Below are positions 6,466 through 34,500 of a stretch of DNA of 64,000 bases, piece by piece. The notes under the pieces are model-generated. The model had not been told where the DNA came from. It saw only the letters and a program-made list of their open reading frames with translations, and ran no database searches. The stretch is from Methanohalophilus levihalophilus (lineage in GTDB: Archaea > Halobacteriota > Methanosarcinia > Methanosarcinales > Methanosarcinaceae), in NCBI RefSeq assembly GCF_017874375.1, contig NZ_JAGGLK010000002.1:310001-374000 (forward strand), read 5' to 3'. Each line of letters starts with the position of its first letter. Within the stretch, counting starts at the first letter, position 1. Position numbers and translations under genes: made by a program.

Positions 6466-6828
6466 TCAGTTGTGGTCATGTCCCTGGCAGGCATTATTCA
6501 TGCTGGCCTTTTCGAGCTTACCATCTTTCCAGGCATTAACAGTATCAGCGACAGATCCAGTTGCGCCGGCATAAACTTCAATTCCGTAGCTTTCAAAAAG
6601 CTGTATTGCTTTCCTTCCAAGTCCTCCACAAAGCATGATGTCCACACCTTGTTTTGAGAGTTGTTCAGGAGGAACGCCTACCCCGCCCATATGCTCGCTG
6701 GTATTCGGGACGATTTCGACTTCCCCGGTTTCACTGTTTACGATTGTAAAGTAGGGTACTTTCCCGAAATGTTGTCCGACTGCAGCTTCAAGTCCTTCCT
6801 GTCCACTTGAGGGTATGCATAATCTCAT
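6466..6828 (-). CDS. NifX/NafY-like dinitrogenase cofactor-binding family protein (second copy)
   Basis: The 120-residue protein of the NifX/NifB-C-terminal fold starts at MRLCIPSSG, chosen because GGAGG lies 7 bases upstream of the ATG at 6828. Conserved features are the QHFGKVPYFTIV segment, GGVGVPPEQL and LCGGLGRKAIQLFE. It ends in a His/Cys tail (NNACQGHDHN) that could bind metal. Relatives bind FeMo-co precursors or, in orange protein, a Mo-Cu-S cluster. No nitrogenase structural genes are nearby. It is one base from the stop of the first NifX-like gene. Confidence 0.85.
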   Translation of the reverse strand: MRLCIPSSGQEGLEAAVGQHFGKVPYFTIVNSETGEVEIVPNTSEHMGGVGVPPEQLSKQGVDIMLCGGLGRKAIQLFESYGIEVYAGATGSVADTVNAWKDGKLEKASMNNACQGHDHN

Positions 6829-6829
6829 T

Positions 6830-7249
6830 TTATTGCCTCCCTTGCATGTCATTGCCTCGATTCTGTCTACCCTGGCCCATTCCACGTCCCATTCCGGCAT
6901 GAGCTGCTGAATTTGGTTCTGAAAGTACCTGGAGTTCTCCTGCATTGTACATTTTCACGGCTTCTTCAACTGTGTTTCCTTCTAGTTCAAACACATTGAT
7001 CCCGGCGGTTGACAAGACCTGATGTGCGTTTGGTCCAATGTTTCCCGTAAGCAGTACGTTTGCATTCTGTCTCACAATTTCCTGTGCTGCCTGAATCCCG
7101 GCACCACCGGTTGCTGAAATTGCCGGGTTTCTGAAAGCTCTGGCATTCATATTCTCGGAATCTACAATTACAAAATAATTGCACCTCCCAAAGCGTAGAT
7201 CAACATTTGAGGTAAGTTCCTCTCCTGATGATGGTATACATATATTCAT
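6830..7249 (-). CDS. NifX/NafY-like dinitrogenase cofactor-binding family protein (first copy)
   Basis: The 139-residue protein of the same fold starts at MNICIPSSGEEL. The ATG at 7249 follows a GGTGAA element; an upstream in-frame start at 7300 would include an unconserved leader. Conserved segments are LRFGRCNYFVIVD, GGAGIQAAQEIV and LLTGNIGPNAHQVL. The C-terminus is Gly/Met/Arg-rich (AGMGRGMGQGRQNRG), unlike its paralogue. It is the promoter-proximal gene of the six-gene operon, with a conspicuous inverted-repeat element upstream. A cofactor-carrier or chaperone role is inferred from the family. Confidence 0.83.
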   Translation of the reverse strand: MNICIPSSGEELTSNVDLRFGRCNYFVIVDSENMNARAFRNPAISATGGAGIQAAQEIVRQNANVLLTGNIGPNAHQVLSTAGINVFELEGNTVEEAVKMYNAGELQVLSEPNSAAHAGMGRGMGQGRQNRGNDMQGRQ

Positions 7250-7267
7250 ACAATTCACCAAATTTAC

Positions 7268-7328
7268 CTCATAAGAGTTAATGTATATAAAAGTTTCCAA
7301 AACACTATTATAATTAAGCTCTTATGAG
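7268..7328. promoter_or_regulatory. Pair of inverted 10-bp elements in the divergent ORP-like/uppP promoter
   Basis: CTCATAAGAG at 7268-7277 recurs as its exact reverse complement CTCTTATGAG at 7319-7328, and the match extends loosely into AT-rich flanks (TTA before, TTAA after). The elements lie 51 bases apart, about five helical turns, between the NifX-like operon (minus) and uppP (plus). A TATA-like stretch (TTTATATAC) lies at 7350-7358 on the plus side. The layout suggests a regulator binding both sites to control both transcripts. The regulator is unknown. Confidence 0.6.
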
Positions 7329-7379
7329 ATAAAACAAATTTTACTTTTGTTTATATACCTGGAATGCCTATCTCATGCT

Positions 7380-8177
7380 ATGCTAAGTCTCATGGAAGCT
7401 ATTGTTGTCGGTCTCATTCAAGGAATGGCTGAATGGCTTCCTGTAAGCAGTGAAGGCTTGGTATCTCTTGTTCTCATCAATGTCTTTGGCAGATCTCCCG
7501 GAGAAGCAATATCCCTTTCAATATGGCTTCATGGTGGCACGCTGGCAGCTGCTACGGTGTATTTCCGTACAGAACTTATGCGAATCCTGCCCGGAATTCC
7601 GCCCTATTTCAAAGCTCTTTTCATGAAGGAAAAGAAAGATCCGCTTATTGACTTCCTGGCAGTTGCAACTGTCATTTCAGGAGCAATCGGTGCTCCACTG
7701 CTTCTATATGTATCTGGCTTGTCTTCATTTTCAGGTTCAATAATGACCGGAGTTATCGGTATTCTCCTGATAATTACCGGCTTACTCCAGAGAAAAGCAA
7801 AAAATGGATTGGGTGGCAGACATGATCCAAAGTTTGATGATGGCGTTATTGCAGGTGTTGCTCAGGGACTTGCAGCCCTTCCAGGTGTCAGCAGGTCCGG
7901 ATTTACCATCTCTGCTCTCCTGCTTCGAGGATATTCCGCATCCACAGCAATTGAGCTAAGCTTCCTGATGAGTATTCCTGCAGTAATGATTGCCATGGTG
8001 GGCATCATGGCTACTGGTAGCATCGAAGTGGATCAGGGTGCGCTTGTAGCTCTATTATGTGCTTTTGTTTCCGGGTATATTACAATAAGCCTGTTCCTGA
8101 AACTGGCAGCGAAAATAGATTTCTCTACGTTTTGTATTGCTTTAGGTCTCCTCAGCATACTGGCTGCCGGGGTATAA
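7380..8177 (+). CDS. uppP: Undecaprenyl-diphosphatase UppP/BacA family (archaeal polyprenyl-PP phosphatase)
   Basis: This integral membrane protein of about 265 residues has both family signatures: EAIVVGLIQGMAEWLPVSSEG at the N-terminus (quoted residues are contiguous with the catalytic Glu) and PGVSRSGFTIS in the middle. In archaea it is expected to dephosphorylate polyprenyl diphosphate, recycling the dolichol-type carrier for glycan synthesis. An in-frame TTG exists at 7347, but it overlaps the TATA element, so the ATG at 7380 (or 7392) is preferred and would give a nearly leaderless mRNA. It is convergent with mtbA. Confidence 0.85.
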   Translation: MLSLMEAIVVGLIQGMAEWLPVSSEGLVSLVLINVFGRSPGEAISLSIWLHGGTLAAATVYFRTELMRILPGIPPYFKALFMKEKKDPLIDFLAVATVISGAIGAPLLLYVSGLSSFSGSIMTGVIGILLIITGLLQRKAKNGLGGRHDPKFDDGVIAGVAQGLAALPGVSRSGFTISALLLRGYSASTAIELSFLMSIPAVMIAMVGIMATGSIEVDQGALVALLCAFVSGYITISLFLKLAAKIDFSTFCIALGLLSILAAGV

Positions 8178-8221
8178 GTAATAAGGAAAAAAGAATAAAA
8201 AAAGAAAGAAAAGAAGGGACC

Positions 8222-9250
8222 TTAGTAGGTCCAGTTCTTTGTTTCTTCAATCATTGCCTGAAGGTTGACTGTTGGGGTCTGGCTTACAGTTCCACAGCCT
8301 GGGCCGAGGAGAGCAACGCCAGCTTCCAGAACTTTCTTTGATTCTTCCCTGATTGCAGCAACATTCTCTTCACCGGAGTTCCAGAGCATGCTTACAGGGT
8401 CGAGGTTACCAACGATAAGTGCTTTCTCAACGTTTGCTACAGCTGCTGCCATATCGACATTCTGGTCAACACTGATTGCATCGACACCACAGGTTTCCAT
8501 GAGGGAAAGACCAGGGGTTGTGTCACCACAGATGTGGAGTACGGATGGTACACCCTTCTCGTGGAGTGCGTCAATAAGCTTTGCGTGGAAAGGTACGACA
8601 AATTTCTTGTAGAAATCTGCACCGATAAGTGAGTAACTTGCGGTTGGGTCAATGATTACGAAGGTGTCTGCGCCGTTCTCGACCTGTGCAAGTGCGTATT
8701 TGATGCTGAATTCGGTTGTGAAGTCCATGACAGCCAGACCGAATTCCTCGTCGGTCATGATGCTCATGAACCAGGAGTCCCCGGTGAGGTGCTGTGCGAG
8801 GGAGAAAGGACCGATCATACTGCCAATGATTGGAAGTTCTTCTCCATATTTGTCAGCGAGGATCTTGACTGCTTTGAGAACTTCTCCGATCCTGCCGGTT
8901 GTTACATCGTAGTCCTTGTGGCTTTCAAGGTCATCTGCGCTGTTGATAACGTGGCTGATAACGGATGGCTGTTGTACTCTTGTACTTGGCTTGATGCCAC
9001 AGCCGAAGAATTCTGCTTCAGCAGTGATGTCGAAAGGAACACGTACTGCTTCCCAACCTACAACTGTGTGACCTGCTTCTGCAAGTTTTGCCATAAGTTC
9101 TGGGTCTTCGTGTGCTTCTGGCCATGCTGCACCACATGCATCCATCTGCTCGACTGTACCTGTCTGTGTGACACAGATTGCAGGCATCCTGTCAACTTCT
9201 TCACGTGCAAATACGCGTGCTAATCTCTCTTTTGGTGTGTATTCAACCAT
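8222..9250 (-). CDS. mtbA: Methylcobamide:CoM methyltransferase, methylamine type
   Basis: The 342-residue enzyme of the UroD/MtaA/MtbA fold transfers the methyl group from methylated corrinoid protein to coenzyme M. The zinc ligands are seen as LHICGDTT and, about 75 residues later, GPGCGTV. The start is [10 protein letters not shown] at 9250, preceded by GGAG; an in-frame upstream start at 9328 lies in the promoter. It has its own TATA box, 119 bases after pylD. Family similarity alone does not separate MtbA (methylamines) from MtaA (methanol); the neighbouring pyrrolysine cassette favours MtbA. Confidence 0.85.
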
Positions 9251-9310
9251 AACCTTAAACTCCTTTAGTATAAGTTCAATTCTAAAAGGTATTCTGGCTA
9301 TGCATTTAGC

Positions 9311-9321
9311 ATATATATACC
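9311..9321 (-). promoter_or_regulatory. TATA box of mtbA
   Basis: On the minus strand the run GTATATATAT is preceded by purines (AAAAG, a BRE-like context). A start site about 26 bases downstream, near 9290, would give a 5' leader of about 40 bases that includes the GGAG ribosome-binding site. Confidence 0.6.
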
Positions 9322-9368
9322 TTTTCATATTGAAAATGCATAACCGGCACCGTCTTCCAATGCCGTTA

Positions 9369-10148
9369 TCAGAGAACTGAATAGAGCATTGCAGCTACCC
9401 CTATAACCAGGGGTTCCATTACAAGATCAACGTGATCCCGGCTTCCAATATCCTCTGGAAGCCCACAGGGAATACCCGGGGTGGATACAAGACACCTTTC
9501 TGCAACCATTCCTTCAGAAATTGTATTTGGATTTGGTGTTGCTTCAAGAACCATTGAGAATTTTTTCGTACCATTGCAGTTGTACGGTATTACCCCAAGT
9601 TCTTCCTTCGCTTTTTCCATGATTTTCCTGTCCGGATCGCATGCATAGACTGTGAATCCCTTGTTTACCAGATGCTCGGCTCCTGCATATCCAACCCTTC
9701 CCATGCCGATTACAAGTATTTCTTTTGAGTCTGCGTGGAGGTATTGCGAGGCAATTTCCGCATAAACCACTCCTGTGCAAACGTGGTTTGTGGCAATCTT
9801 CCCGTTGCGAAGGTTGTGGGCAATGAAAATATGATCATCAGCCATGAGAATTATGTCGGCATTTCCCTTGATTGCTTCATGGTATCCGGTAATGTCCGCA
9901 TGTTCGGTGATGAATCCATCCATTCCAAAGTATTCAGTAATAGCCAGCAATGATGCTGAAAAAGTGCTAATAATCCCGTTTCCAGCTGTAATTGGTATGA
10001 TTCCAACTCTCTCATTCCCGGGATTTGTTCCGTAAATAGCATGGCAGATTTCCGCAATATCCATGCCAGTATCCTTCCTGATGATATCATTGTTGTGGTT
10101 GAGTTTATCCAGAAGATCTTCAAGATCCTCCGGTGTAAGTAATGCCAT
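9369..10148 (-). CDS. pylD: Pyrrolysine biosynthesis protein PylD (dehydrogenase)
   Basis: The 259-residue protein has the PylD family's usual length and a Rossmann NAD-binding motif ([15 protein letters not shown]) after an N-terminal domain. PylD oxidises L-lysine-N6-3-methyl-D-ornithine to a semialdehyde that cyclises to pyrrolysine. The start is [10 protein letters not shown] at 10148, chosen for its GGAGG Shine-Dalgarno; an upstream in-frame start at 10193 would overlap pylC. It is the last gene of pylTSBCD and has the strongest ribosome-binding site of the cassette. Confidence 0.95.
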
Positions 10149-10161
10149 GTCTTTTCCTCCT

Positions 10162-11241
10162 TTACTTTTCCATGTCTTTCCTGATGATCTCAATAGCTTT
10201 GTTGTGATTATTTTCGACTTTGTCTGGAGACTCGCCTGTGCAAATCAAAGTGTAAATAGTGTATTTGCCGGTTGACTTGAAGATCTCAATTTCTTCATCC
10301 TCAAAAAGGCGGAAGTAGTCCTCACCTTCCGAAAACAAATGTTCCCCTGTGGGTGTCAGGTTACCGTCGTCAATCATCAGATGTTCGTAAACGCAATGTT
10401 TGAGAGTTTGAGGTTTAACGTCAGGGACTTCTTTGCAGAATGCGTCCATCAGCCAGGTAAGCAGGTTAATGCCACTGCTGTGGTAGACAACTGTTGGTGT
10501 CTGGCTGGGGAATCTCGCATCAATTTCAATTACCCTGATGCCTGATTGTGAAGCGATTGCTTCCACATCCATTATGCCTTTCAGGTTCAGGTTTTTGGCA
10601 AGCTGGTAGCTGATTTCCCTGAAATTCCCATCAGTCTCCATCGGGGTTACTTTGTGGCAGTCATATACATCATCAATGTGTACCTGTGTCTGCTGGCCGA
10701 CTGCATAATCCTGCCCGTTTCCCACGACTTCAAGGGAAATTACCGGGCCGGTTACATATTCCTCAACTAGCATGTCTGGATCAATCTCTGCCAGCTCTTC
10801 TTCGGTTTCAACGATCCTTGCTCCAATGCTGCTACTCATGCAAGGAGGTTTTACAAAATATGGGGGTTTCGAAGGTTTGTCAAAGGGTGTTGGTACATCT
10901 ATGGATGAGAAATATTCCTTTGATCGTTTTTTGTCCATGCTGACGTGATATGCATCAAAATCAAAAAGCAAGGGGCAGTGAAGTTCTGAAGCAATTTTTT
11001 TCAGGAAAAGGATGCTATCGAGGTTCTCGTTCGTGGGAATAATTGCAGAAAATTCCCGGGAAAGGTCAACGAGTTTCTCAGGTTGCTTTGTTATATCAAA
11101 ACAGAATGTCTGGTCTACGACGTTACGTATCAATGCTCTGGGATTTTTGTCCACCAGGACAACTTCCATCCCGGCTTTGTGAGCAAGATAGGCTACTTCG
11201 AAGCCTTGCAACTTGCCCCCTATCAGGCATATTGTATTCAT
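10162..11241 (-). CDS. pylC: 3-methylornithine--L-lysine ligase PylC
   Basis: The 359-residue ATP-grasp ligase couples 3-methyl-D-ornithine to the epsilon-amino group of lysine. An N-terminal Rossmann-like part (CLIGGKLQGFEVAYLAHKAG) precedes the ATP-grasp core (PYFVKPPCMSSSIGARIV, MLVEEYVTGPVISLEV, VIEIDARFPSQTPTVV). The ATG at 11241 lies one base after the amber stop of pylB. No Shine-Dalgarno-like sequence is visible upstream (the region is the end of pylB, reading GATGAGTCGGTAGA), so translation probably depends on ribosomes finishing pylB. Confidence 0.95.
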   Translation of the reverse strand: MNTICLIGGKLQGFEVAYLAHKAGMEVVLVDKNPRALIRNVVDQTFCFDITKQPEKLVDLSREFSAIIPTNENLDSILFLKKIASELHCPLLFDFDAYHVSMDKKRSKEYFSSIDVPTPFDKPSKPPYFVKPPCMSSSIGARIVETEEELAEIDPDMLVEEYVTGPVISLEVVGNGQDYAVGQQTQVHIDDVYDCHKVTPMETDGNFREISYQLAKNLNLKGIMDVEAIASQSGIRVIEIDARFPSQTPTVVYHSSGINLLTWLMDAFCKEVPDVKPQTLKHCVYEHLMIDDGNLTPTGEHLFSEGEDYFRLFEDEEIEIFKSTGKYTIYTLICTGESPDKVENNHNKAIEIIRKDMEK

Positions 11242-11242
11242 T

Positions 11243-12298
11243 CTACCGACTCATCAGTATCATGTTGAAATCTTCCTGTTTCGCAGGCTCCATTCCCATG
11301 GATTCAAGTCTTTTAACAACGCTGTGGGCGTCCCTGTCTCTCTCGGCCAAATCCCTGTCGTAGTTAACAACACCCTCAAGGGATGATCCTGAGGGTATGA
11401 TAGAAGTAACAACGTTTGCTCCGGCATTGAGGCGGTGAACCATTCCATCGATTCCTTCCAGATCAAGCGATGCGGGAATCAGACGGTCCGGGAACATAAG
11501 TCTTAAAATGGCTATAATCTTCAGTTCGGATTTGCTCGAGCCCGGAACTTTTTCCTCAAGGGGTGTCCCTTCCTGCGGTACAAAAGTCATTACCCTGACC
11601 ATGTCCGGATTAGTGTTCTCCAAACCTCTTAGGGATTTGAATGTGGATTCGTTGTCAGGTTCAACTTCTGTCAGGATGCCGTCCTCAATACACATTCCGG
11701 TTTTCCGGGCATGATTTCGGCAATCAATACGTTTTTTATAGGATTGACCAACCCTGAGTTTAGCGTAAAGTTCAGGGTCATAGGTTTCCTGATACAGGGC
11801 AAGGAAATCCGCGCCATTCTCCCTCAATTCTTCAAGCACATCATTCTCAACAACTCCCGGGGAAACCATTATCGGAAGGCCGACTATTTCTTTTACCCTT
11901 CTGACGGCTTCAACGAGCCTTTCAGGATGGTTGTGGTAGTAAGGGTCTTCTCCCATGGTAAGGTCAACCATGTGGATAGGATCATCCTTGAGTGCTTCGC
12001 ACACCTTTTCTATTTCATCTGGCGTGAGGCGATATCTATCAATATCGTTTTTGCAATTATAGTAGCAGAATGCGCAATTGTTTTTGCAGTAAGTGGAAAA
12101 ATAGACAAAACTGTACAGGAAAACCTTGTTCCCAAAATTATGATCCCTTATTGCTCTTGCAACGGAATAGAGTTTCTCGAGGTTTTCATCATCTTCAATA
12201 TTAAGGAGGTTGCGCAGGTTGTCATCTGACAGCTTTTGCCCGTTTATGATGGATTCTGCAAAGTTGTCAAGTTCTTCCCGGCTCATATCCTTTAACAT
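11243..12298 (-). CDS. pylB: 3-methylornithine synthase PylB (radical SAM), amber stop codon
   Basis: This 351-residue radical SAM mutase converts lysine to 3-methyl-D-ornithine. The cluster motif is CKNNCAFC (CxxxCxxC, about residues 71-78) and later parts match the family (TMGEDPYYHN, TFVPQEGTPLEE, LDLEGIDGMVHRL). Its stop codon is TAG (11245-11243), the only TAG terminus among 69 complete genes here. If decoded as pyrrolysine, the frame continues 39 more codons to TAA at 11125-11123, inside pylC in another frame. A GAGGT ribosome-binding site precedes its ATG. Confidence 0.95.
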   Translation of the reverse strand: MLKDMSREELDNFAESIINGQKLSDDNLRNLLNIEDDENLEKLYSVARAIRDHNFGNKVFLYSFVYFSTYCKNNCAFCYYNCKNDIDRYRLTPDEIEKVCEALKDDPIHMVDLTMGEDPYYHNHPERLVEAVRRVKEIVGLPIMVSPGVVENDVLEELRENGADFLALYQETYDPELYAKLRVGQSYKKRIDCRNHARKTGMCIEDGILTEVEPDNESTFKSLRGLENTNPDMVRVMTFVPQEGTPLEEKVPGSSKSELKIIAILRLMFPDRLIPASLDLEGIDGMVHRLNAGANVVTSIIPSGSSLEGVVNYDRDLAERDRDAHSVVKRLESMGMEPAKQEDFNMILMSR

Positions 12299-12302
12299 TT
12301 TA

Positions 12303-13544
<1,242 letters not shown>

Positions 13545-13620: not shown

Positions 13621-13692
13621 TGGCGGAAACCCCGGGAATCTAACCCGGCTGAATGGATCTAGAGTCCATTTGATCTACCTGATCAGGTCTCC
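13621..13692 (-). tRNA. pylT: tRNA-Pyl(CUA), amber suppressor, CCA encoded
   Basis: A 72-base gene with all known tRNA-Pyl peculiarities: a single base between acceptor and D stems, a 5-base D loop, a 6-bp anticodon stem (AATGGA/TCCATT), a 3-base variable loop (CAG), a T loop without TTCG (TTAGATT) and discriminator G before an encoded CCA. The anticodon CTA is at 13662-13660. The acceptor stem GGAGACC pairs with GGTTTCC, giving one G-U wobble at the fourth pair. It heads the pylTSBCD cluster. Confidence 0.98.
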
Positions 13693-25495: not shown

Positions 25496-26308
25496 TTATT
25501 TTCCAAGTTCCTTAGACCGTTCGGATGATTTAATTACTGCATCCATGAAGGCAGATCGAATGCCATTCTGTTCAAGAGTATGCATAGCACGAATCGTTGT
25601 TCCGGCCGGGGATGTAACCATGTCTTTGAGTTCTCCGGGGTGCATTCCTGTCTCTAGAACCAGTTTTGCAGCACCTAACACTGTCTGAGCTGCCAGTTTG
25701 AGTGCATTTTCCCTGTCAAGCCCCTCATAAACTGCACCGTCTGCAAGGGCTTCAATTACCGGGAAAATATATGCAGGACCGCTGCCGGAAAGTCCGGTGA
25801 CTGCATTCATCAAATGCTCCGGGACAAGAGTGGCAACTCCCACACTGTTAAAGATCTCCATTGCAATTTCGGCATCTTCCACAGATGCATTCCTTCCGGT
25901 ACTGATTGCAGATGCAGCTTCCCCTACAGTCGCTGCAATGTTTGGCATTACCCTGATGACATGTCGTCCTTCGTCTAGCTCTGCTTCAATTGCTTCTGTT
26001 GTTATGCCGGCAGCAATAGATATCACGAGTTTGTTTTCAAGCTGCGGATTAATATCCCTCAAGACAGTTTTGATAATCTGGGGTTTAACTGCAATAATCA
26101 GGATTTCACAATTGGATACGGTTTCAAAATTGTCTGTGGAAACGTTGATTCCCAGTTCGTCACGAAGGGAGTTTAGGCCCGGTTCGTAAACATCACTTGC
26201 ATAGACGTCTTCGGAATTGGCAATTCCTGCTTTCAGGATTCCTTTAAGCAGGCTACCTCCCATTTTTCCTGTACCTATTATCCCTATTTTCTTGTTATTG
26301 AGGTGCAT
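25496..26308 (-). CDS. proC: Pyrroline-5-carboxylate reductase
   Basis: The 270-residue NADPH-dependent enzyme performs the last step of proline synthesis. The N-terminal Rossmann motif is KIGIIGTGKMGGSLLKGIL. The C-terminal dimerisation domain carries the family signature AVTGLSGSGPAYIFPVIEAL and MVTSPAGTTIRAMHTLEQNG. The start is MHLNNKKIG at 26308; an upstream in-frame start at 26398 overlaps the MBF1 gene. It follows MBF1 on the same strand by 13 bases. Confidence 0.95.
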   Translation of the reverse strand: MHLNNKKIGIIGTGKMGGSLLKGILKAGIANSEDVYASDVYEPGLNSLRDELGINVSTDNFETVSNCEILIIAVKPQIIKTVLRDINPQLENKLVISIAAGITTEAIEAELDEGRHVIRVMPNIAATVGEAASAISTGRNASVEDAEIAMEIFNSVGVATLVPEHLMNAVTGLSGSGPAYIFPVIEALADGAVYEGLDRENALKLAAQTVLGAAKLVLETGMHPGELKDMVTSPAGTTIRAMHTLEQNGIRSAFMDAVIKSSERSKELGK

Positions 26309-26321
26309 TGAATTACCTGCT

Positions 26322-26810
26322 TTATTTCTTTTTGATAGTAACGATGTCTCCGAGAGTTGTATTACGCTGGAACCCATCTGCCTGCCAGTCGTCTCCACTA
26401 ACTCTCTCCATAAGTGTTATGCTAAGAGTTTGCTCCAGTTTCTTTCGGACGGAATCTTCCGGAACAATTTCCCCTCTCTCAATTTTCTTTATGAGAGATG
26501 CCTTTTCCTTTATTTTTGCTGCAAGCACTTCATGTGTCCAGCCACGTTTTTCCCTTGCTTCCTTTATGATGTGCTCATAACCATCCACAAGTTCGTCACT
26601 TAATTCTGCAAAAGGGTCTCTTTTTGGCCTTGGTCGGGAAGTTCTCTGGGGTTTGGCTGCCACGGGAGCATTTTTTCTTGATACCGGTGTTCTTGCCTTG
26701 ATGGCAGTTCCATGTTGTGAACAACGCCCACATACGTTTAGTTCACTTCCTTCAACGGTAACTTTGAAAGGCTTGCCCCTGATGTCTGTGCCGCAGATTT
26801 CACATTGCAT
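26322..26810 (-). CDS. mbf1: Multiprotein bridging factor aMBF1
   Basis: The 162-residue protein has an N-terminal zinc ribbon (CEICGTDIRG ... CGRCSQHG), a basic Pro/Arg linker (KPQRTSRPRPKRD) and a C-terminal Cro/XRE helix-turn-helix (REKRGWTHEVLAAKIKEKASLIKKIERG). Archaeal MBF1 binds the ribosome and may link translation with transcription. The layout and length match other archaeal members. It is divergent from the PAN gene. Confidence 0.95.
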   Translation of the reverse strand: MQCEICGTDIRGKPFKVTVEGSELNVCGRCSQHGTAIKARTPVSRKNAPVAAKPQRTSRPRPKRDPFAELSDELVDGYEHIIKEAREKRGWTHEVLAAKIKEKASLIKKIERGEIVPEDSVRKKLEQTLSITLMERVSGDDWQADGFQRNTTLGDIVTIKKK

Positions 26811-26895
26811 AATATGATCCTCCCTGATGCCGGCGTGCTACGCCTCTTCTCGAAAGTGCTATATACCTATGGGCTTAAATATTATTCGGAGCGAC

Positions 26896-31906: not shown

Positions 31907-33745
31907 ATGGCCAGTCCCTTTGTGGTTCATGATCCTGTTCACAAGACAATAGTAATCACGCCCCTGCAACAGGGATTGCTCGAGACTCCTCATCTCCAGA
32001 GGCTCAGGGGAATCCAGCAATTGGGGCTTGCAGATGTCGTCTATCCCGGGGCAAACCATACCCGTTTTGAGCATAGTCTGGGTACGATGCATACAGCATC
32101 CCTTTTTGCAAATGTGCTTGCTCTTCCTCCGGATGAAAAAGTAATGGTGGAAATTGCCGGTCTTCTCCATGACGTTGGGCATTCCGCCTTCTCACATGCT
32201 GTTGAGGGGGTTTTACAGCGCAATCCGGCTTTCCAGCCCGAACTGCAGGGGACGCAAATGGGCAGGCATGAGGCATTCACTTCCCATATAATCAAAAACA
32301 TACTTCCCGAAATTGGTGAAATTTCAAGACTTGTGAAATAGGAAATAGGGGCAGATCCACACGCATTTTTTGCAGCAATCTCAAAAATAGCTGTAGGCCA
32401 GACTGAAGGTCTCGATAAACCATATCTTGCACAACTAATCTCTGGGGATATTGATGCAGACCGAATTGATTTTCTTCTGCGTGATTCTTATCATACGGGT
32501 ATTTCCCTGGGGTTGATTGATCTTGATCAGATTTTGCAGAGTCTTAGCATCAAAGATGGCAATATTGTGCTTGGTTTTGGTGACGGATGTAGTTATGACG
32601 AGGATATGGCTTTAACTGCTGCAGAATCAATGCTCATTGCCCGCTCTCATCACTATAATGCTATTATTCATCATCCTCATCTCCAGTCCGCACGGACAAT
32701 GCTTTTGCGCTGTCTTGAGAATGCCCTTCAGAATATGGCTAAGGCAGAAGGGGATGACAATGTAATCTCCAGTATAGAGGAGTTTTTTATTTCCTACAGG
32801 GATGCGGATCTTCTAGCCTTTGTTCGGAAATGGGGGGATGCAAAATCTTCCAAACTCATTGATTCACTCCTTGAAGGGAATGTTTACGAACCCGTTTTCC
32901 GGTTTAACCAGAAAACCCTGTCCCCGTCTACAAGAATGACGCTTTCTACAATTGCAAGGCATGGTGTTGCCTGCAAAATGTTTGAAACCGAATTGGAAAA
33001 ACGTCTTGGTGATGTATTTGTAAACCTGGATGTTGCATCAGGAGTTCCCAAAACCACCCGAGTCTTTGTGGGTGAGGGGGATAGTTTCTTTTATGATGAA
33101 TCCGCACTCGCAGGTGGACTTGTCAGGGCCATTTCCCGACAACTTTCTCTTACAGCTTTTGCTCACAGGGATGTGGCCACTTGCAGGGATGGTGAGGAAG
33201 CCCGGATGATGATGAAAGATACTGTCGATGAATTATCTCCGCGTTTGCTTGGTTTCATAAGGCAGGGCCAATATCTTCCCATCGAAGGAATAATGCTTCT
33301 CTTCTACGCAGTTCACAGCCTGTTCGAGGAAAAAGGAAAGGATTTTGTTTCTATTCCCCGGATAAGAAACATCACCTGGCTTTACAAAACTGTTCGGAAT
33401 TTTGGACAGCATGAAAAATTGAAGTACCTTTTTGACTACAAATTCCATGAAAAGTATGGTTTTCCCTATAGCTATCGGGTTTACGAAGATATACAGGTGC
33501 TTGTTGCTATGGGAATTGTGGATGAAGATCTTCGTTACTACGAAAAGGCAGGTCGTTATCACCAACGCTATGAATATGTGCTTACCGAGCACGGGGTGAC
33601 CTATGGAAAAAATCTTGTAGGGCCTTATCAATATGAATTCAGAGAGATTATTAATATGTTGAAAATGGAAAAACATTCGATACCAAGGGATATTGTAACA
33701 CTGCCCCTCAAGAGATATTTACGCGAAACCGGACTGGAGCCTTGA
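31907..33745 (+). CDS. HD-domain phosphohydrolase (SAMHD1/dGTPase-like) with in-frame amber codon, probably pyrrolysine
   Basis: One frame of 613 codons, interrupted only by TAG at 32339-32341 (codon 145). The N-terminal part has RFEHSLGTMH (His56), LLHDVGHSAFSHA (His88-Asp89) and a leaderless start. After the TAG, homology continues without loss: ADPHAFFAAISKIAVGQTEG, then GDIDADRIDFLLRDSYHTG, the block holding the last Asp ligand of SAMHD1-type enzymes. No ATG, GTG or TTG occurs in frame between the TAG and 32513, so restart would lose that block. With pylTS in the same window, decoding as pyrrolysine is the simplest reading. The C-terminal 350 residues have no clear domain. The stop overlaps the trmI start. 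Confidence 0.85.
32339..32341 (+). other. In-frame TAG, candidate pyrrolysine codon
   Basis: The codon follows CTT GTG AAA and precedes GAA ATA GGG in the HD phosphohydrolase frame. It sits in a loop between the HD helices and the next conserved block, where an unusual residue might be tolerated. No obvious strong hairpin follows it. Confidence 0.75.
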
Positions 33746-34500
33746 TGATGGATGATAATAGGTTAGTTCTTCTCAGGACTCGACACAAAGGGAAGACAAA
33801 AGAGTTTCTTGCACCGGTTTCGAATGCTCCTCATCATTCAGAATTCGGAGTCACTGATCTGAGTGTTCTTTTGGAGGACGAAAATCTGGATGCCGTCACT
33901 TCCCACATGGGGCAGGAGTTCTCTGTGGTATCCCCGCGGTCTCCTGATTTTTTCCGTCACTCAAAACGCACAGGGGCTCCTATGATTCCCAAGGATATTG
34001 GGTTGATAATGGCTCATGCCGGTGTTTGTTCATCGGATAATGTACTTGAAGCAGGGACCGGTTCAGGATCACTGGCTATTTATCTTGGCTTTGTGGCGAA
34101 AAGAGTTCTTAGTTATGAGGTGCGGGAAGAGTTTACCAAAGTTGCCCGGAATAACATCGAGAAAGCAGGTCTTTCAAACGTTGAAGTCCGTTGTGGAGAC
34201 CTTGTGGAAGCGCTTCCTTCGCTATCGGAAGAATTTGATGTCATCATCCTTGATATGGGTGGCTCGGAAAAGGCTGTCAGTGGATGCTTTGAAAAACTGA
34301 AAAAAGGTGGATTCCTTGTAACTTATTCCCCGTTCCTGGAGCAGGCTGCACAAATCCGGGAAGAAATTGACAAACTGGATTTCTTTGATTGCAGGACATA
34401 CGAGTGCTTTGAGCGTGAAATTTCATTTTCATCCAGAGGAACCCGGCCCTCTACAATTCCTGTGGGGCACACAGGATACCTGACTTTTGCAAGGAAATAA
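33745..34500 (+). CDS. trmI: tRNA (adenine-N1)-methyltransferase TrmI-type
   Basis: The 251-residue SAM methyltransferase modifies A57/A58 of archaeal tRNAs. An N-terminal beta domain is followed by the Rossmann core: PRSPDFFRHSKRTGAPMIPK, motif I VLEAGTGSGSLAIYLG, DVIILDMGGSE and a conserved end RPSTIPVGHTGYLTFARK. The ATG at 33745 shares its A with the TGA of the HD gene, so the two are translationally coupled. An in-frame TTG at 33742 is less likely. Confidence 0.9.
   Translation: MMDDNRLVLLRTRHKGKTKEFLAPVSNAPHHSEFGVTDLSVLLEDENLDAVTSHMGQEFSVVSPRSPDFFRHSKRTGAPMIPKDIGLIMAHAGVCSSDNVLEAGTGSGSLAIYLGFVAKRVLSYEVREEFTKVARNNIEKAGLSNVEVRCGDLVEALPSLSEEFDVIILDMGGSEKAVSGCFEKLKKGGFLVTYSPFLEQAAQIREEIDKLDFFDCRTYECFEREISFSSRGTRPSTIPVGHTGYLTFARK

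Follow-up and report, generated by a model that had tools for sequence, protein, structure and literature searches.

An archaeal genetic code in which all TAG codons stand for pyrrolysine was reportedly described by Kivenson and colleagues in 2025, some pyrrolysine-using archaea being said to treat TAG as a sense codon throughout the genome, and the genome considered here would resemble these. In the methylamine methyltransferases MtmB, MtbB and MttB, an in-frame TAG is read as pyrrolysine at a conserved position in the active site, and for MttB of Methanohalophilus portucalensis FDF1, which belongs to the same genus as the present organism, the residue has been proven by mass spectrometry (PMC4928046). 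According to published work, pyrrolysine is inserted without a dedicated signal, as the outcome of a contest between Pyl-tRNA and the release factor (PMC9499178, PMC2933860). Pyrrolysine has also been found in the tRNA-His guanylyltransferase Thg1 of Methanosarcina acetivorans, where, in the account of Heinemann et al. (2009) as relayed in PMC2933860, it arose by neutral evolution and is not essential for activity. In 'Candidatus Methanomethylophilus alvus', TAG is the stop codon of 1.6% of genes, and pyrrolysine is predicted in 16 non-methyltransferase proteins of varied functions, half of which have homologues without the TAG in relatives (Borrel et al., 2014; PMC4153887).

The gene described here, which encodes a predicted HD phosphohydrolase, resembles each of these systems in part. 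Like the methylamine methyltransferases it has an in-frame TAG that we predict to be read as pyrrolysine, but at a variable, non-catalytic site. The likeness to Thg1, as far as PMC2933860 describes that case, is that of a non-methyltransferase gene with an in-frame amber codon in one species only and a pyrrolysine that the activity can do without; the enzyme families differ, and pyrrolysine was physically observed in Thg1 whereas here the case rests on sequence. With 'Ca. M. alvus' the present genome shares rare TAG stops, internal TAGs in non-methyltransferase genes and TAG-free homologues elsewhere (PMC4153887), but it belongs to another methanogen order and the set of genes is another. Pyrrolysine outside the methyltransferases is thus already known, and the HD phosphohydrolase appears to be a well-supported further example.

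The gene lies within a window of 64,000 nucleotides (G000:C2:310001-374000, G000 being the present 2.1 Mb genome of the Methanohalophilus genus), and its features are collected in the table. As the first-pass annotation had it, a single frame is broken only by the TAG at codon 145; it runs for 612 codons and closes with TGA. The predicted metal ligands that had been placed on the two sides of the TAG are indeed found there, and all four (H56, H88-D89 and D185) are invariant in an alignment of 21 sequences. Also borne out was the claim that no ATG, GTG or TTG lies in frame between the TAG and position 32513. One small correction concerns the product of termination at the TAG, which would have 144 residues rather than 145. 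Nor do the 467 codons downstream of the TAG contain any TAA, TGA or frameshift.

Features of the HD phosphohydrolase gene, its neighbour, the pyrrolysine genes and the remnant in the sister species (positions are those of the window unless a genome and contig are given)
Feature	Position	Strand	Basis
HD phosphohydrolase gene (PF01966 HD and PF19276 HD_assoc_2), 612 codons, one in-frame TAG	31907..33745	+	translation, Pfam, orthologues
In-frame TAG, codon 145, predicted pyrrolysine	32339..32341	+	translation, alignment
His56, predicted metal ligand (HTRFEHS)	32072..32074	+	invariant in alignment
His88-Asp89, predicted metal ligands (LLHDVGH)	32168..32173	+	invariant in alignment
Asp185, predicted fourth metal ligand (DADRIDFLLRD, residues 183-193), 3' of the TAG	32459..32461	+	invariant in alignment
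TTG, codon 203, earliest standard start in frame 3' of the TAG	32513..32515	+	frame scan
tRNA methyltransferase gene (GCD14/TrmI-like), start overlaps end of HD gene	33742..34500	+	pair conserved in family
tRNA-Pyl (CUA anticodon)	13621..13692	-	
PylS, pyrrolysine--tRNA(Pyl) ligase	12303..13529	-	NF007083, 700.9 bits vs cut-off 550
PylB, 3-methylornithine synthase, ORF itself ends in TAG	11243..12298	-	NCBIfam equivalog
PylC	10162..11241	-	TIGR03909
PylD	9369..10193	-	TIGR03911
Remnant of HD gene in sister species, truncated after ~125 residues; behind it a gene of PGF-type surface-protein kind takes the place of the rest	G002:C9:8000-27000, about 6500-9550		

The Pfam HD domain covers residues 53-188 and so straddles the TAG (PF01966, 37.6 bits against a cut-off of 22, with the H...HD...D metal motifs present), and the HD-associated region lies downstream of it. 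With a best E-value of 1.4e-31, the product matches HD dNTP triphosphohydrolases of the SAMHD1 / EF1143 type (PDB 2hek, 2q14, 2o6i, 8gb1), with which it shares the HD core and the H, HD and D motifs; it differs in that its family has a long C-terminal half outside these matches and in that its substrate is a prediction. Scores with the dGTPase equivalog profiles were far below cut-off. The protein would be SAMHD1/dNTPase-like, nucleotide hydrolysis being suggested by its similarity to 2hek, 2o6i and SAMHD1. The gene is flanked, here and in most relatives of the family, by a divergent IF-2B-family gene and by the co-directional tRNA methyltransferase gene, and since the end of the HD gene overlaps the start of the latter, translation of both may be coupled.

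The genome has what is needed to read UAG. The tRNA-Pyl and PylS claimed at first pass are present, together with intact PylB, PylC and PylD; all four proteins pass their NCBIfam equivalog cut-offs, and the cluster of tRNA-Pyl and pylSBCD lies ~18-22 kb upstream of the HD gene. PylS is ~70% identical to that of Methanohalophilus species and 87% to that of the nearest relative, the sister species G002. Two genes for the monomethylamine methyltransferase MtmB, each with an in-frame TAG, are found on another contig. A search for the release-factor family returned pelota together with aRF1; the one aRF1 read, that of G002, has a standard NIKS motif.

How TAG is used was surveyed in mechanically called ORFs over 770 kb of the 2.1 Mb (36% of the genome). 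Among 690 non-overlapping ORFs with a length of 100 aa or more, TAG is the terminator of only 23, although it makes up 17% of stop triplets and would be expected at that frequency (p about 6e-30). When the 23 are read through, the TAG is plainly internal in ten, as judged by Pfam or tblastn for most and by reading of the translation for two NosD-type repeat proteins and an integrase; with a second HD protein and a MarR regulator included, genes with a single internal TAG number at least 12 in the 770 kb. Several other TAG-ended ORFs meet their next stop one to five codons later, and TAG ends at most 1-3% of the ORFs sampled. Genuine-looking TAG terminators do persist, at pylB and at a few ORFs where another stop soon follows. 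In eight genes a Pfam domain crosses the TAG: those of a FemX/GNAT protein, a SAM methyltransferase, an isocitrate/isopropylmalate dehydrogenase, a D12 DNA methyltransferase, an FAD oxidoreductase, the second HD protein, the MarR regulator and the HD phosphohydrolase itself. When 455 genes of genome G003 were used as references, four clean single-stop interruptions of continuous alignments were found, and all four are TAG, with that of the Iso_dh-family dehydrogenase only eight residues short of where the alignment stops; lone TAA or TGA codons fall within ~15 residues of the edge of an alignment, the other cases carry several stops, and at least one of these appears to be an artifact of antisense extension. 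G002 shows the same pattern in this comparison, with one well-internal TAG in each of three genes and a TAA in one. Across the sampled genome, TAG by these measures behaves as a sense codon, and the one in the HD gene would not be special to it.

The downstream stretch looks like that of a gene in use. Of the 103 columns 3' of the TAG at which the other 25 orthologues never vary, this gene retains 100, and divergence per codon position is similar on the two sides of the TAG. In a Tajima-type comparison with the intact gene of M. sp. RSK (G001), lineage-unique replacements were evenly balanced, at 43:44, 38:43, 38:43, 35:45 and 36:45 with five outgroups. Judged by these counts, the stretch is under purifying selection like that on the intact orthologues. 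A long-silenced gene would have drifted over 467 codons, and the absence of such drift supports a working full-length protein. However, the TAG is private to this one genome and so may be recent, and conservation is blind to a fresh nonsense mutation. It is therefore conceivable that the gene is a recent pseudogene, dispensable, its 144-residue fragment degraded; the sister species has indeed lost the gene, of which two frameshifts within the first 125 residues and a truncation have left a remnant. Against this stand the lack of a second lesion in 612 codons, where constraint is not relaxed, the other genes in this genome with a single internal TAG and the lack of comparably clean TAA or TGA cases, and the presence of tRNA-Pyl and PylS, with which readthrough of UAG is expected. 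We regard a pseudogene as unlikely.

The open frame, the constraint beyond the TAG, the variability of the site, the pyrrolysine genes, and the scarcity of TAG terminators beside many internal TAGs can all be read from the DNA, and they point to a full-length protein that would be made in the cell with pyrrolysine as residue 145, very probably so in our judgment. Pyl-tRNA(CUA) would decode the UAG and insert pyrrolysine without a dedicated signal, because in a genome of this Methanohalophilus lineage UAG appears to serve chiefly as a sense codon for pyrrolysine; a structured RNA or PYLIS-like element was looked for 3' of the TAG and was not found (z = +1.74). The TAG itself would have arisen in the present lineage at a variable helix-end site and remained there, being neutral or nearly so. 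That complete reading, a 612-residue HD phosphohydrolase with a pyrrolysine of little or no consequence at a variable site, we consider probable, with good confidence.

The first-pass proposal of pyrrolysine in this protein thus stands as far as readthrough is concerned, backed by the constraint 3' of the TAG and by the genome-wide use of TAG as sense, but not in what it implied, a housekeeping-type enzyme, a constrained site and a singular case. A strong match to the gene occurs in 61 of 112 genomes of the family, the present one included, and 51 have no full-length strong match; the remnant in the sister species implies that the gene is dispensable in that clade and its loss tolerated. Among the 61, the TAG is found only here, the 60 other genes being gene-length and TAG-free. 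Their existence marks the frame as no product of chance. Alignment of homologues, the route that had been proposed for learning what replaces the residue, gives D, S, E, T, H or a gap opposite codon 145 in the other 25 orthologues of the family and order, and in a structure model (mean pLDDT 78) residue 145 falls close to the C-terminus of a predicted helix, 137-146. The variability argues that this is not a catalytic position, and the TAG is not conserved at an active-site position among orthologues as it is in the methylamine methyltransferases. The implied uniqueness gives way to the other internal TAGs of this genome and to the earlier reports of pyrrolysine in non-methyltransferase proteins.

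If readthrough is real, the full-length HD protein would depend on pyrrolysine supply, as would many proteins at once, and should the cell need those full-length forms, the pyrrolysine dependence of growth would extend beyond methylamine metabolism. One could see in this a real control, by which the full-length HD phosphohydrolase, and through the overlap of the frames the tRNA methyltransferase downstream, would be made only with an ample supply of Pyl-tRNA; both nucleotide metabolism and tRNA modification would then be tied to methylamine growth, but we think this very unlikely. An error of sequencing or assembly at 32339 is conceivable, as GAG, TCG and similar codons are one base away from TAG, but random errors would not be expected to favor TAG, and the many other internal TAGs have no comparably clean internal TAA or TGA counterparts, which makes an error highly improbable. 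A specific role for pyrrolysine 145, whether catalytic or as a deliberate regulatory link from methylamine supply to the enzyme, would draw on the dependence of the full-length enzyme on Pyl-tRNA, should readthrough be needed; with a variable site outside the metal motifs, a TAG in one species only and a feature common to many unrelated genes, such a role is extremely doubtful, and this does not appear to be a specialized pyrrolysine enzyme. Finally, a split gene, in which translation stops at the TAG and restarts within the frame to give two polypeptides acting jointly or separately, could point to the 410-residue ORF that opens with the TTG at 32513, but that restart lies past codons 146-202 and the invariant D185 block they hold, so that the product would lose Asp185, and with an HD domain match that straddles the TAG and no split form among the 60 other genomes with the gene, its probability seems negligible.

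With UAG 145 most plausibly decoded as pyrrolysine, the HD gene offers a concrete, well-conserved test case for asking to what extent Methanosarcinaceae now treat UAG as an ordinary sense codon. At least 12 genes in the third of the genome sampled here would come out split or truncated under standard annotation, among them those of the Iso_dh-family dehydrogenase and the DNA adenine methyltransferase. In the former (G000:C2:155185-156180) the TAG is 11 codons short of the next stop and corresponds to Glu in G003, and frame and homology run on past it; in the latter, of the D12 class (G000:C2:459795-460730), it lies just ahead of the DPPY motif and is spanned by the domain match. The second HD-domain gene (G000:C2:263947-265452) has its one in-frame TAG within the HD domain.

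Some approaches and candidates were set aside. A scan by codon usage for stops with coding sequence on either side did not usefully contrast TAG, TAA and TGA, being confounded by adjacent in-frame genes, and the homology comparison was used instead; taking all ORFs as references in that comparison left it swamped by antisense shadow ORFs. A TAA and a TGA ahead of a proteasome-type ATPase (window positions 26257-26826) at first resembled a disrupted gene; this stretch, however, seems to be a false extension of the frame upstream that runs antisense to the ORF at 26322-26810.

Among the TAG-ended ORFs, three (G000:C2:494669-495649, 507617-507997 and 688279-688593) have another stop one codon later, so that reading through the TAG would lengthen the product by only two residues. 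The TAG end of pylB has been reported before in M. mazei, M. acetivorans and M. burtonii (PMC2933860); we see it here and in nine of 11 relatives checked, the next in-frame stop usually lying ~40 codons on, within pylC.
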